This document shows positions 26,043 to 57,549 of a DNA stretch of 64,000 bases, in pieces (the stretch's first letter is position 1; every line of letters begins with the position of its first letter). The translations under genes and the position numbers were made by a program. The stretch is from Aphelenchoides besseyi (lineage: Eukaryota; Nematoda; Chromadorea; Rhabditida; Aphelenchoididae). Below the pieces are notes generated by a model. It ran no database searches, was not told the origin of the DNA, and saw only the letters and a program-made list of their open reading frames with translations. The stretch spans positions 3,782,001 to 3,846,000 of the forward strand of contig JAMPIQ010000002.1 of assembly GCA_024699855.1 (NCBI GenBank), given 5' to 3'.

Positions 26043-27939
26043 ATGGACGCCTATTTCGTGACGAAGAAGAACGCTAATGAGGAGTTGGAACGAGAAGCAC
26101 AGTCGTTGCGCAAAGTGGCCATTGCGGGTGTTTTTTGCAGCACAATCTTGACGATTGTTGCCGCTCTACTAATTCCGATGTTGTACTCATACCTTCAATA
26201 CGTTCAAATTCAACTCGAAGACGAACTGGACTTTTGCACCGTACAAACCAGAAATCTCGCAAAGGAATGGTCAACGACAGCATCTTTGAATGGAATTCGG
26301 TATGAGATTCTTGTCACCAAAATACAAACTTTTTTAGATCAAAACGAGCAACGGGAAGTCGTGGTGAACTCGTTCTCGATGCTCAACCATATCCGCTTCG
26401 TCACTCGACTTTTGTTGGTCAAGCAAGTGGTATTCCACAACGTCAAACTCGTCAATCGAAAGGCTACGATTCGGCAACAAGTGGAAGCTCTTCAGCTAAA
26501 GCTCCTGCATCGCCTCCACCCAGCGGCTACGATTCGGCAACAAGTGGAACCGCCGGATCGACCATTTCGTCGGGAAGTGTTGTTGAGGAATCGCACGATG
26601 AATCCGAAGTTTGCAGTTGTGGAGTCGGTCAAGCGGGACCACCGTTAGTTTTTCAACTTTACAACATTTTAATTGCTGTTATTTCAGAGGTCCACCTGGT
26701 GAAGATGGACAAGACGGTTAGTTTTGTTTGTTCGTTCATTTGATCGCGAACGGATTTGTTGACCGGATTTAAGTTCGAAAACAAAAAGTTGTTTGTTCGC
26801 AAACCCGAAAACCGGATCCCGATTGATAGGAAGATGATAAGCATGTCTAGTGGATTGATTGGAAAATAAATTTGAGTTTAATGATTTGTCAATTTGTAGG
26901 AAAGGACGGTGAGAGTGGAGTTGATGGCCAACCCGGCGCAGATGCATTACAAGACACTTCTCAAATGTCAGAGCCTTGCTTTGATTGCCCTGAAGGTCCT
27001 CCAGGCCCAGCCGTTCGTTATTAAATGTCATACAGTAGTTGAACTATGAATATTTAGGGTGCTCCAGGACCGAAAGGATCAAATGGACAACCTGTGAGCT
27101 TCAACCCATGTTAGTGAACTAAAAACACGTATAATTGTAGGGACCGAACGGAAAAGACGGCGAATCCGGAACACCAGGGTTTGTATTTTAAGCAACAATT
27201 GTAATTAGATTAATTTGTTTAAGACCTCAAGGGCCACCTGGACCAGCTGGCTCAGCGGTAAAATACAATCATCTACAGCATAATAATAATAGTTTATTCT
27301 GTAGGGAGAAAATGGACAACCCGGAGAAAAAGGAGGCATGTAAAAAGAATCCGATTGATTCTCATGATTCATATTTAGCAAAAGGACCAGATGGTGTACT
27401 CGGCGATGTTCCGGGTATTGTCGGACCACCAGGGTAAGTTATTTGAAGCACTAACGTCAATAATCATAATCTCTGCAGACCTCAAGGACCTGCTGGACCT
27501 GCAGGTTTGTTATTATCGTCGAAATTGAACACTGCATGTTGATTCTGTTTAATCACAATAAATTTAGGTCAACCAGGACCAGCTGGTCGTGTTGGCAGCT
27601 CTTCACCAGGACCATCTGGCCCAACGTAAGCTATATCGTTGAAAATCCATGAGTTAATGTATCAATTAAAATAGCGGGGATGCAGGAGCGCCAGGACCGG
27701 CAGGAAAGTAAGAATATTTGTTGCTTATTCAACATTTTAATTGATGTACTTTAGACCTGGAGCTCCTGGAGGCGAAGGAGTCGCAGGAGATTCGGGCGTT
27801 GGAGGCGGATGGTAGGTTTATGATTGTATTCAAGCATTAACCCGTTTAATTGCAGCGATCATTGTGTAAGTTTGAAGCTTAAGAATCCATTTAATTGGCT
27901 GTGTTTTCGCCGCCACCACGCACAGCTCCGGGCTATTAA
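26043..27939 (+). CDS. Cuticle collagen (SQT/ROL-like N-terminus), about 14 small introns, one broken acceptor
   Basis: Secreted extracellular-matrix protein of the worm cuticle. ATG at 26043 (MDAYFVTKKNANEELERE). The N-terminal domain has a membrane/signal segment (VAIAGVFCSTILTIVAALLI) and PMLYSYLQYVQ, then the furin-type site RSKR created across the first intron. A low-complexity part contains GYDSATSG twice (26465 and 26528). Gly-X-Y blocks run from 26640 to 27810, flanked by Cys clusters (VCSCGVGQ, CFDCPEG). The C-terminal CDHC (27858-27869) is followed 40 nt later, in phase 0, by the nematode-typical PPPRTAPGY and TAA (27910-27939). The intron between these two ends in TTTTCG instead of TTTTCAG. 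If unspliced, the protein gains about 60 foreign residues. The triple-helix region is chopped into exons of 25-60 nt. Confidence 0.9.
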
Positions 27940-52616: not shown

Positions 52617-55600
52617 TCAAAACTGATGAGAAGCCATGTTCGTCGAATTGCGATGAGTGATCTGGTTCTCGTCATCGCGAATACCGTTGACACTCGCTGT
52701 TATTGCAGAAATGTCAGAAGACGGAAGAGATCGTGAACCCAAGGAATCGGCAGGATGAATGCGATGTTCGTTGGAATTCGTGAAAGCGTGCATTCGAATG
52801 TCGTCTTTTCGTCTATTGATACGTAATCCCTCATTTCTCTTCTCTTGATGTTTGTAGTAGAAGAACTCAATAACAAGCATTGTTAGGGAAATGATGATGC
52901 CACCAAGAATCAAAATAAAAACACCGCCAATGTTGTTTATGGAGATACCCGTGCTCTCTTCCTCGCTGTTCAAACACTCTTGACGTTTCGGGTTTTGATG
53001 CCACCATTTTTCTTTCAGAGTCTCCAAACTTCGTGCATTCAACAAGCCGGCGATTGATGTCGAGATTTCGTTTTTTAGTCGACTGCCCTTTTGAACAGCC
53101 AAAGCGTAGGGTTTACGTGAGAATTCTTGACCGATTTGTTGAAGTTTGCAATTTGTGATAGTCGCATATTTGATTACCATCGAATCACCAATAAACGCAT
53201 ATCCGTTGCTTTTCTCCAGGACTCGTGCAATAGCAGATTCGGTATTTACCGGTAGTTCTGATTCTTGCATGAATCTCCACATGTTCGTGTATTTGTCGCT
53301 AACCGGATAATCCCAAACGGCCAGTTTAGCTCTTTCGGCTGAACTCATCGATTCGTTCAAGGACATCTGCTTCCAAATACTAAAAAACAAGTCATCTAAT
53401 TGACTTCTGATGTCTGACTAACTTGTAGAATTGCTCTTCGATTTCGGCCATCCGCTTGAAGTATGTCTCGGTCGCGCCATCCTTAAAGTAGGCGTGAGAA
53501 GCAGTGCAGAAATTTTGCAAAATTTGTTTCAAGACTTTGATACAGTATGCGATTTTACCTGATTTGACCTATTTGGCTTTTTGTCCGCAGCTTCTTAGCT
53601 GCTCATTTTCATTTCATTTATTTTCGTTCTTGTTTGCGTGATTGGCGGCTGCTCCGTCTTTTCGTCGGCGTCGGGGAAATACGAAAACCAGGTAACTCGT
53701 GCATTACTGTGCGGTTTTTGCCAATAAAAAAATTTATCCACTCTAGATATTAAAAACAATTCATTCTTCATCATCTGCAGAATCCCAGTCTTCAAATTCT
53801 TCTTCAAAAATCGCGTCCGCTAAATTTTCTAGCGATAACTCGTCGTAATCTACTGGTTCAAGTGATCGTTGGACTTTTACAACTCGATCATTGAGCAATC
53901 TTTTCCATTTTCACGCGACTTGTGTTTTGTGTTTTCGTTCGATCATCTGTCCGCTAGAACGCGAAAAAGATTCCTCGATTCTTTCGATAATCCTCGTGCC
54001 ATCACTTTCACACGAATTATTGTAATTATGGTGTAATATAGAAAGAATTGTGCGTAGACGAAAGGTGGGCAGTGGGCTACAAGGAACAATCGAATAGATG
54101 AATAATTTTGAGACACTTACTAAAACTTTCGTTTTGGTCGATACGAAATACAAGTGCAATGAAAATTTTCGATGAGCGATGTGGTCATTCTATGGCTTGT
54201 TTTTTCTAGATAATCTAGAAACTTTTTTTGTAACAAGTTCGAAATGACGGTTCATTTTTCCCTTTCAGATTTACTCCGCAAGCCGGACACAAGCCTTTGT
54301 ACTTGATAGGATAAGACATCAAATTAGCTGAATTGAAGATAATAACACTCATAATTTAAAATTAATATCTTACCAAATAACCAAATCGCTCGTACTTCCC
54401 CGACGAAAAGACGGAGCAGCCGCCAATCACGCAAACAAGAACGAAAATAAATGAAATGAAAATGAGCAGCTAAGAAGCTGCGGACAAAAAGCCAAATAGG
54501 TCAAATCAGGTAAAATCGCATACTGTATCAAAGTCTTGAAACAAATTTTGCAAAATTTCTGCACTGCTTCTCACGCCTACTTTAACAACGGAATATCTGA
54601 TCTTGAACTGGCTTGCCAAATCGTCGAGACCACTAAATTCACAGATCTTGTGGCTTCCAACTGATCACCTACTTTATTTGTTGTTCCATGCGCGAAACGG
54701 TTAAGAAAGCAGCCAAATTTGCTGTATAGGATGCAATAATGATAAACCCGAACAACCACCTACAAACTCATTACTGACACCACAAAATTCACTTACCATG
54801 TAGCAGCCACCAATCGACCAGACAGATTTTTTGGCGCTTCACCACCACCTAAATGCAAGTGGACAACCGAACAAGAACACAAGAAAACCTTGAGGTGTCA
54901 ACGACGTCATACAAAACCAAAAACATTCGCGTAACGTAAACTCTCGCTTCTCGTTATCGTCTTTGTATTTTTCACGATTGTTTCTGTAGGAGTACGGAGA
55001 GAAACGGTCGAATGTCCACAGCAGCAGACTCGTGAACAAATAGGCCCCGACAATGCAAACCCACACCGGCCAGTCAAGAACCTACAAAATCACTTGCAAT
55101 GATAACCTGCGAAATGGAATACGAGCCATCAAAAACTTGAACAACGAATACTCGACTTCAGTTCTTCGCATCAAAATCGCCGTTCCAACGAGATCGTAAA
55201 ATGGAGTTGTGAAGTCGACATCGACTTCTCTTTCGCTGATCTGTGAAATCGGACCTAATGCGATGTCCGCTTAAAGAAAAACGTGTTGCAATGACGAGTA
55301 TCCTCACCTTCGCCAGAAACTAACTGGCCTATCATTCCATTCCAATTCCCCGTTTGCTCCATCGATCCGAACTTCCCATCCGGAACCAAATACAACTCGT
55401 ATGTGAATTTCAATTCTTTGCGTATCATTTCAATTAAGTCGATGCAATAACCTTGAAATCCAAAGGTCTCCGACGGTCCACCTAACGCAACAAATGGTTC
55501 TTGCTATAACTCAATTTTCATTCAATATTGCGAAACAGCGAACCAAAATGGTGACCACACGGTAATGTGTTAGCTGTCGAACATTCACGTTGATTCCATC

Positions 55601-57044
55601 GAACAGCGGCTGTAAACCCTTACTATATGTCCAGTTGGCAATCTAAAAGGAGCTTGAATTCAATCAGGAGTCTTACCAGTTTGGCGAATTGTGAATGGGG
55701 AAATCGAGACATGCGATCGATTCGGATGTCAACCGCTGTAATGTCCTGAAACAAATTGACGTTTGAAAACTTCAGATGTCAAAGTGACTTGATAAAAAAC
55801 GTTATTTGAATGAAAGCGATAAATTCCGAAATCGAATTCATTGAAGCATCTCAACAATCCGTGCAACGTTGTGTTCTGATCGTGCCAATTAACAGGCGAT
55901 TCTTGTCCCATTATGTCTTCGCTGGTTTCGTTGTAGCCTTGAAGCATAGTTAGCGCCGTCCAAATGATATCCAAAGAATAGGACATTTGCAGGTGATGTT
56001 TCGTTTCTCTGGAGTATACGAACTGTTCCTCGAGTTCCTCTGACCAAACAAAATCAGCAAAATCTGCGAGCTCTTCGCTTGCCGTCGATTTGGCAACTCG
56101 GACCCAATGGATTTGAACGTTCTCGCAACCAACACACTTAAATGCGAGAGTATCTTTGGTGAAAACAATCCATGTCCACAGATTCTCTTCGATTTGTTTT
56201 TGTCCCGTTCGAACATAATCCTCAACGGTCATCGTATTTGTAATGAACATCAAGACTTTGGTTGTCCTTCCCAAACGATTCAAGTGCTCGGTTATGAGTT
56301 CGGGAGTCTTTTCGGCTGTTTGGAAATCGACGGAAACATTGAGCGCCAAGAATGGACGTTGCCAATCGTCTTCCATTAGGTTTTCTTAAATAAAAAACAT
56401 TCAATTAGAAGCTCTGACAACTCACGATATTTCTCGTCGTAAATTACGATGATGTTCGTTTTGATTTCCAGTGCTTGTATCATGTCGTCCAACATGTTGT
56501 CAAAGACGACGAAAGACGGAACCATGACCGCGTAGTTCTGTGCAGAAGTCGTATCATTTTGACCAGCTGAACACCTTTGATTTCGAGTAAAATAGCGACC
56601 AACTCACTTCTGCTCACACCTTCCCATTGAAAAAGTCGTGTTTGAATGGTCGGTAAATTTGCCTGTTGGGTTTTTTCAGCCAAACTTGTGATCAGATCCT
56701 CGTTGTCTACAAGACTGATAACAAAATCGGCATCAGAGTATAGACTCTCATCTAAAAACTGACTATTTCCCGGTTGTTTGTTTTACTCACCAATGAAATT
56801 TCCGGAAACAAACCGGACGCTTGTTTCCAGATCGCTTTTGATTTGATAAGAATCTTTATAAAACATCAATGAAATGTTCAAAGCTTCAACTACTGGCTGA
56901 ACTACTTGATCACTGGCATCGTAGATTATGGCTAAAAAGCGACTTGTATACTTCCACTCAACGCAAAAGCATACCGATCTTCTTTGCATCAAACGGAACA
57001 AAAACACCAACCAACATAAAAAGCAGCAAAACTCGTGAACTCAT
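52617..57044 (-). CDS. Ionotropic receptor, IR25a-type glutamate-receptor family
   Basis: Ligand-gated cation channel subunit of sensory neurons; IR25a is a co-receptor in protostomes. ATG at 57044, signal peptide [21 protein letters not shown] full amino-terminal domain (57000-55700) is present, unlike most IRs but as in IR25a. S1 of the ligand domain is [20 protein letters not shown] and [22 protein letters not shown]1 is [19 protein letters not shown]. Pore: [19 protein letters not shown]3 is [16 protein letters not shown]2: [47 protein letters not shown]-like [16 protein letters not shown] and [11 protein letters not shown]4 is [21 protein letters not shown] 1,095-bp element interrupts S2 but may be spliced out. 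About 900 aa. Confidence 0.88.
53487..54581. mobile_element. TTAA-flanked terminal-inverted-repeat element acting as a possible new intron
   Basis: Arms 53487-about 53680 and about 54388-54581 are reverse complements with almost no mismatch (ends AGTAGGCGTGAGAAGCAGTG). TTAA flanks both sides (53483-53486 and 54582-54585), the target of piggyBac-like transposases. The centre (53690-54380) holds only an acidic minus-strand scrap ([14 protein letters not shown]) and no full transposase, so it is non-autonomous. On the host coding strand a GT at 54580-54579 within the element end and an AG at 53483-53482 (second TTAA plus host G) define a 1,099-nt intron. Removing it joins SVVK to DGAT in phase. 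Confidence 0.85.
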
Positions 57045-57549
57045 ACTGCAGTTAATGAGCCTACTGTACATCGTGTTCTTGAAAGAAACGACTGAGAGTT
57101 GTTAGAGAAGAAATTCCCGTTGACCTTAAATGTAAAGGAAGGAAAACAATTGGGTATTCGATATCACTTGACTACGTTCATTGCTTAGTTTACGCTTTCG
57201 GAGTAGCTTGATATTTCCGTTTCAATTCCAACATTCTTGTGTCACAAATGAATCTAGTGCACTAAAAAAGCTTTCAACACAAATAACCAGACGAAGATCG
57301 CAATTGACTCCGTTGAAAGTTTCTGTTTGTGCGAGAAATCATCTCAACGATTTGTATCTTCACGATCAAAACTTCACAAACAATTCATTTTAGAAGAGAG
57401 CTTGGAATACGCTTATTCTCAGTTCATGTTCATTTTCAGGTCCTCTTTTCAGATAGGAAGATTTTTATCGTCATCATTCTTTGACGTTGATGCTCGACAA
57501 AAATAAGAAGACGGTTGGAAGAAGATGAAGTGGTTTAAATTGCTTGAAA

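Follow-up and report, generated by a model that had tools for sequence, protein, structure and literature searches.

Cases in which a transposon is spliced from an exon are already known, and nematodes are included among the organisms in which they occur (Tc1). Rushforth and Anderson reportedly described in 1996 that Tc1 insertions in C. elegans exons are removed by splicing, and introners were reportedly treated by Huff et al. in 2016. For the Tc1 insertion rsd-3(pk2013) of C. elegans five cDNA clones are described, of which three carried 48 additional bases with the frame kept and the remaining two were frameshifted; removal as an intron is most likely, and imprecise excision from the array is left open (PMC4910058). 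Transposons spliced out of exons are also reported from maize and Drosophila, in works cited by PMC2586383. In introners the splice sites are supplied by the ends of DNA transposons and by target duplications; the Chrysochromulina type brings a 5′ site with it and borrows the 3′ one, and 4-bp duplications and an unchanged mRNA length also occur (PMC9860276). An introner family may number anywhere from 5 to more than 2,000 members, with enrichment in genes in 161 of 175 genomes, and among animals and land plants that search of 3,325 genomes found introners in only two groups, both of them animal (PMC9860276).

Intron gain by transposon insertion has been compiled for Oryza, Drosophila, Oikopleura and Zea, with no nematode listed for this mechanism in the 2012 table (PMC3443670). 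In ten Caenorhabditis species 168 new introns were confirmed, and no source sequence was found for any of them (PMC9169325). The matches listed from the open-licence literature included no report of the element described below or of a transposon-derived intron in Aphelenchoides. The origin of new introns is poorly documented in animals. Here we analyse a transposon at a TTAA within an exon of a glr-7/IR25a-type receptor gene of Aphelenchoides besseyi, the rice white-tip nematode. The explanation we favour, and hold to be moderately likely, is that the spliceosome takes the element out of the pre-mRNA as a newly gained intron.

The element and its host exon

The window, the whole stretch of 64,000 nucleotides that was analysed, corresponds to C2:3782001-3846000 in a genome of 47.4 Mb and 31 contigs (contig C2 has 17,779,264 bp). 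The receptor gene (52617..57071, minus strand) was modelled with 15 exons, a 2,832-nt CDS and a product of 943 aa; the gene model is complete and all 15 exons are open. An initial annotation of the window had called the gene an IR25a-type receptor and placed the insertion within conserved S2 coding sequence, and both calls stand. The protein carries Lig_chan and Lig_chan-Glu_bd domains and its best matches are IR25a/GLR-7, the relatives with telling names being mostly GLR-7 or IR25a (among 120 listed; 2,710 passed the E-value cut-off and 7,979 candidates were scored). The insertion splits K from D in SVVK/DGAT, between a host exon at 54581..54632 on the 5′ side of the element and one at 53423..53481 on its 3′ side (both minus strand). 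The spacing of the joined segment, which the same annotation had likened to insect IR25a, is conserved: the 19 residues spanning the join are gap-free in 30 of 31 aligned relatives, with P0007 as the sole exception, and kainate receptors are likewise gap-free across it.

Immediately 5′ of the insertion the protein reads SVV, where 27 of the 31 aligned relatives have YAP; P0001 and P0002, both from A. besseyi, read SVVK. The gene also contains a GC-AG intron (55126-55082, minus strand; ATG|GCTCGT) that seemingly occupies the same position as one in the paralog treated below (ATG|GCAAGT, L041 near 2,913), and here the public models P0001, P0002 and P0007 splice differently.

The element itself lies at 53487..54581 (minus strand), is 1,095 bp long, is given here in the sense orientation of the receptor gene and holds short ORFs only. 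Its left inverted arm (53483..53668, plus strand) and right inverted arm (54400..54585, minus strand) each measure 186 nt including the TTAA, are 100% complementary to one another and are separated by a spacer of 731 nt. The initial annotation was right about the presence of such arms, and its description of them as near-identical and of ~190 bp is corrected to 186 bp and full identity. TTAA is present on both sides of the element, as had been noted there, with the 5′ copy of the target duplication (coding strand) at 54582..54585 and the 3′ copy at 53483..53486, both on the minus strand. On the coding (minus) strand the element begins AGTAGGC and finishes GCCTACT. The element, its 186-bp arms, the flanking TTAA and a reading frame that is intact once 54580-53482 is left out can all be read directly from the DNA.

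The element is a non-autonomous hairpin (fold-back) transposon at TTAA in an exon. Both TTAA and terminal inverted repeats, by which TTAA-duplicating cut-and-paste transposons are recognised, are present in all three copies discussed in this work. The DNA transposons that duplicate TTAA include piggyBac, Kolobok and Sola3, and the window element is like them in its inverted ends and flanking TTAA; its AGTAGGC termini are unlike the piggyBac ends, and the long perfect arms are those of a fold-back element. As a group that duplicates TTAA, Kolobok is a candidate source of the transposase. Kolobok-H is reported in A. besseyi (PMC11118728). No transposase was recognised in the ORFs tested. Pfam had no match at E <= 1 for two ORFs, one of 34 aa in the window copy and one of 163 aa in the copy at C2:161548-162964, and the 163-aa ORF had no homologue at E <= 10; the piggyBac transposase family PF13843 had no match in the nematode's own genome and none in 14 controls either. 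Rfam returned 0 matches at the gathering score within the window. Within 54400-54260 (minus strand) a transcript of the element itself may contain a 46-nt intron (54328..54373, minus strand; GTAAGA...TTCAATTCAG), followed by a short peptide that by eye is possibly a remnant of a zinc-finger protein, with no Pfam match.

Predicted removal as an intron

The predicted intron (53482..54580, minus strand) has 1,099 nt, reads GTAGGC...CTTTAAG, is of phase 0 and is derived from the gene model, the public protein model P0002 and splice-site scores. Its removal would join 54581 to 53481, and with them SVVK to DGAT, in phase 0 and with the frame kept; unspliced, the frame ends after 24 codons of element sequence, which speaks for removal. 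This junction had been proposed in the initial annotation together with the origin of both splice sites, and each part of that proposal was borne out at the level of the letters: the donor would come from the element, host AAA and GTAGGC giving AAA|GTAGGC, and the acceptor would consist of the duplicated TTAA and the next host G (53482), giving TTTAAG (CTACTTTAAG|GAT). Simple excision to a single TTAA, with loss of the element and one TTAA, also restores the frame and yields SVVKDGAT, as had been stated.

As AGTAGGC is found at each end of the element, a donor A|GTAGGC would be available in either orientation. Insertion at a coding-strand TTAAG would thus supply donor, acceptor and an unchanged protein in one step; the lysine at the insertion would be kept, with AAA replacing AAG, and an element-free allele would read ...GTTAAGGAT... 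at the insertion site. Two of the six TTAA sites in the CDS are followed by G (the insertion site counted in its empty form), so chance landing on such a site is not rare. The TTTAAG form of the acceptor is used elsewhere in this nematode. Two of the 13 other introns of the receptor gene have it, ending TATTTAAG and TCTTTAAG, and the two examples that the initial annotation had cited from genes it called lipase and collagen both hold on translation, although the lipase intron ends at 1233 and not at about 1212; the acceptor in the collagen-called gene ends at 27223. The neighbouring host donor is AAA|GTAGGT, compared to AAA|GTAGGC in the element.

Splice sites were scored with a matrix built from the receptor gene's own introns (12-13 only) and compared by leave-one-out. 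The donor AAAGTAGGC scored 6.26, higher than 8 of the 12 leave-one-out values for GT donors of this gene, and the proposed acceptor scored 6.09 and exceeded 7 of 13 leave-one-out acceptor values. Exonic sites with equally high scores were few (8 of 142 GT and 2 of 127 AG). Across 54640-53430 the proposed donor ranked third of 59 GT and the proposed acceptor fourth of 74 AG. The three AGs above the proposed acceptor include the real upstream acceptor (54633), and the other two are internal, at 54535 (6.98) and 54077 (7.09); the internal donors at 54120 and 54373 both scored above the proposed donor.

These two internal donors and two internal acceptors count against the exact intron and are consistent instead with the main rival, damage to the gene, either by splicing into the element (54580 to 54535 or 54077) or by transcripts ending inside it, so that little receptor of full length would be made, with the exact intron a minor product at most. 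The most dangerous competitor is the acceptor at 54535 (TTTGTTTCAAG, within the arm), which with the same donor would produce a 46-nt intron (54535..54580, minus strand) and run the frame into a stop. A length of 46 nt is close to the 34-45 nt of the gene's 13 ordinary introns, whereas the predicted 1,099 nt are far beyond it, a disparity to which the initial annotation had already drawn attention. The C. elegans case of an exonic Tc1 likewise gave mixed products (PMC4910058). Damage of this kind is nevertheless rather unlikely in our judgement. Every other exon has an open frame, and the protein of the model is in agreement with its relatives; P0001, encoded on an 18.1-Mb contig of a different A. 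besseyi assembly, is identical around the insertion site in a comparison of proteins alone; and the scores that favour the internal sites are derived from just 12-13 introns.

Secondary structure was a further point against removal as an exact intron. The RNA of the predicted intron is predicted to form a single long stem (-517.4 kcal/mol) that buries the donor at its base, with UUUAAG, the terminal six bases, unpaired. With the donor placed there in a perfect stem, binding of U1 and U2AF would need to precede folding of the arms.

The public gene model of the window locus is P0002 ('Protein CBR-GLR-7 [Aphelenchoides besseyi]'), which showed a 98% match to our gene model within the searched region and reads SVVKDGAT across the join. 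This model therefore skips the element, using the predicted bases or others that yield an identical protein. The agreement is one of model with model, P0002 having the look of an automatic model, and its weight is reduced by flaws elsewhere in P0002, which compared to the full gene model lacks VFYQ, IANW...VVTIL and ten residues in a block at EYSLFKFLM. Public models also bridge transposons without proof: P0007, from another A. besseyi assembly, matches the exons of the paralog and drops the conserved YAPIR block where transposon sequence occupies 3.2 kb of the paralog.

Further copies and the paralogous gene

The whole genome was searched with three queries (the complete element, one arm and the 14-mer at the terminus), and the copy counts obtained are lower bounds. 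At least three copies of the element are present in the genome, the window copy and two more (C2:161548-162964, equal to L020 3549-4966, and C3:232618-239478), both of which carry later insertions. Within these lower bounds the arm matched only at these three places, which identifies a mobile element and not a chance arrangement. One flank is common to the two further copies (1,215 bp at 97.5% identity) while their opposite flanks differ, and two independent insertions are therefore improbable. Diverged partial matches of the common flank elsewhere in the genome indicate that this flank is itself a repeat, and within it 511 bp separate the copies from related ORFs of 405 aa (with an Ulp1 protease domain) and 198 aa (no Pfam match). 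On the side that is not shared (L020, L022) the break falls exactly at the element end, a pattern not accounted for by simple duplication of both together. The C3 copy (L021 4992-8859) is full of later insertions, one of them with a reverse transcriptase ORF (RVT_1) and another with a 403-aa ORF that had no Pfam match and by eye resembled a mariner-type transposase.

The initial annotation had drawn a parallel with introners and had raised the question of whether other copies are biased to genes. The part of this parallel that stands is the predicted use of an element donor and a target-duplication acceptor with an unchanged mRNA length, and the part that does not is a family with gene bias, as one of the three copies is in an ordinary gene and the other two share the flank of mobile repeat. 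No preference for genes is evident from the two further copies, a result that speaks against the family idea and not against the single window intron. Classification as an introner family was rejected for the same low numbers, with at least three copies compared to 5 to more than 2,000 per family and one of three in a gene.

Within a copy the arms were identical in the window and at C2:161548-162964 and differed at one compared position in the C3 copy, whereas between copies they were 93.7-97.0% alike, and the copy at C2:161548-162964 has a 4-bp loss common to both its arms. One arm was probably copied onto the other, during transposition or later, and with homogenisation of this kind within copies the identity of the arms gives no insertion date. 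This bears on a second alternative, in which the insertion is young and possibly strain-specific, is not usefully spliced and represents a null or segregating allele, with excision at the DNA level in some cells restoring the gene. Identical arms are expected of a young copy, and clean excision is possible for TTAA-duplicating elements such as piggyBac and would leave SVVKDGAT. The near-identical arms of the other copies, however, remove the force of the first point, and the assembly contains one locus of the gene besides the close paralog and three weaker matches; we consider a young, unspliced allele improbable.

The paralog is a second glr-7-like gene (L041, C2:13654500-13663500) in which transposon sequence unrelated to the window element takes up about 3.2 kb (L041:3403-6596, about 13.658-13.661 Mb). 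Its layout comprises a 2.4-kb intron, a 22-nt microexon and then a 762-nt transposon-bearing insert flanked by AGGTG. With the codons lined up by eye, the 762-nt insert, which follows AGA G, is at most 1 nt from the window site, and two random positions in such CDSs would be this close in about 1 in 1,000 cases under a uniform model. Without both inserts the paralog reads SLDDLSKQYQIQYAPIRGGSTETYFQRM, which matches the family; the 762-nt insert has an acceptor score of -4.27 and a donor score of 2.14. The AGGTG insert is a lead for a second transposon-made intron.

Two transposons of the paralog were considered in their own right. Transposon B (740 bp) was rejected as an introner because the flanks of its copies are alike, making it part of a longer repeat: it had at least about 26 further matches in the genome (40 of 152 candidates scored), and among 20 fetched stretches (one limited to 10 kb) the left flank was alike in 18 and the right in 17, with one right flank consisting of N. 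Transposon C, the one flanked by AGGTG, was rejected as a clean second case, as it gives the join IRGGSTETYF but with the acceptor at -4.27 and the donor at 2.14, and two other copies examined had no clear target duplication by eye; it stays a lead.

That an older ordinary intron at this codon was replaced or filled by the element, with the transposon-laden intron of the paralog as a relic of a shared intron, would account for the proximity of the 762-nt insert to the window site and for the 2.4-kb intron 22 nt upstream, but it is very improbable, given that no intron remnant is present on either side of the window element, where the TTAA copies abut codons, and that the paralog insert has AGGTG flanks of its own, like a separate exon insertion, and a poor acceptor. 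Under the favoured explanation of a new intron made by the element, the latter may be a ready-made two-way intron, with a donor at each end and an acceptor provided by any TTAAG target, and the codon, having been hit in the paralog as well, may be a hot spot of intron gain; we offer this extension tentatively, as something possible and not as the likely course.

Comparison with known systems

If the reading of the element as a new intron is true, what is new is a natural nematode intron with a visible source, made by a hairpin that has a donor at each end. Should the junction hold in RNA, the locus would be a clear single-step intron gain by a hairpin element in a nematode. A recognisable source transposon, a readable target duplication and an exact predicted junction make the birth of an intron directly testable, and splicing efficiency, the effect of the 186-bp stem on the donor and the persistence of the allele could be tested on alleles such as this one.

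Common to the window and to Tc1 in rsd-3 is a DNA transposon in a nematode exon that is taken out of the message, as predicted for the window; the rsd-3 case is imperfect in the five clones sequenced and concerns a laboratory mutant allele, whereas the window has an exact predicted join in a reference genome, TTAA ends and 186-bp arms (PMC4910058). Introners and the window element are alike in how the splice sites would be supplied, with an own 5′ site and a co-opted 3′ site, and differ in copy number, the window element having at least three copies with one of the three in an ordinary gene (PMC9860276). The compiled cases of intron gain likewise start from a single exon insertion that becomes an intron, with the target duplication helping to make the splice sites (PMC3443670). 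In the classical model set out there the duplicated sequence is AGGT, which the AGGTG arrangement of the paralog matches, its poor acceptor score (-4.27) notwithstanding; in the window, by contrast, the duplicated TTAA would give the acceptor only and the donor would be given by the element (PMC3443670).
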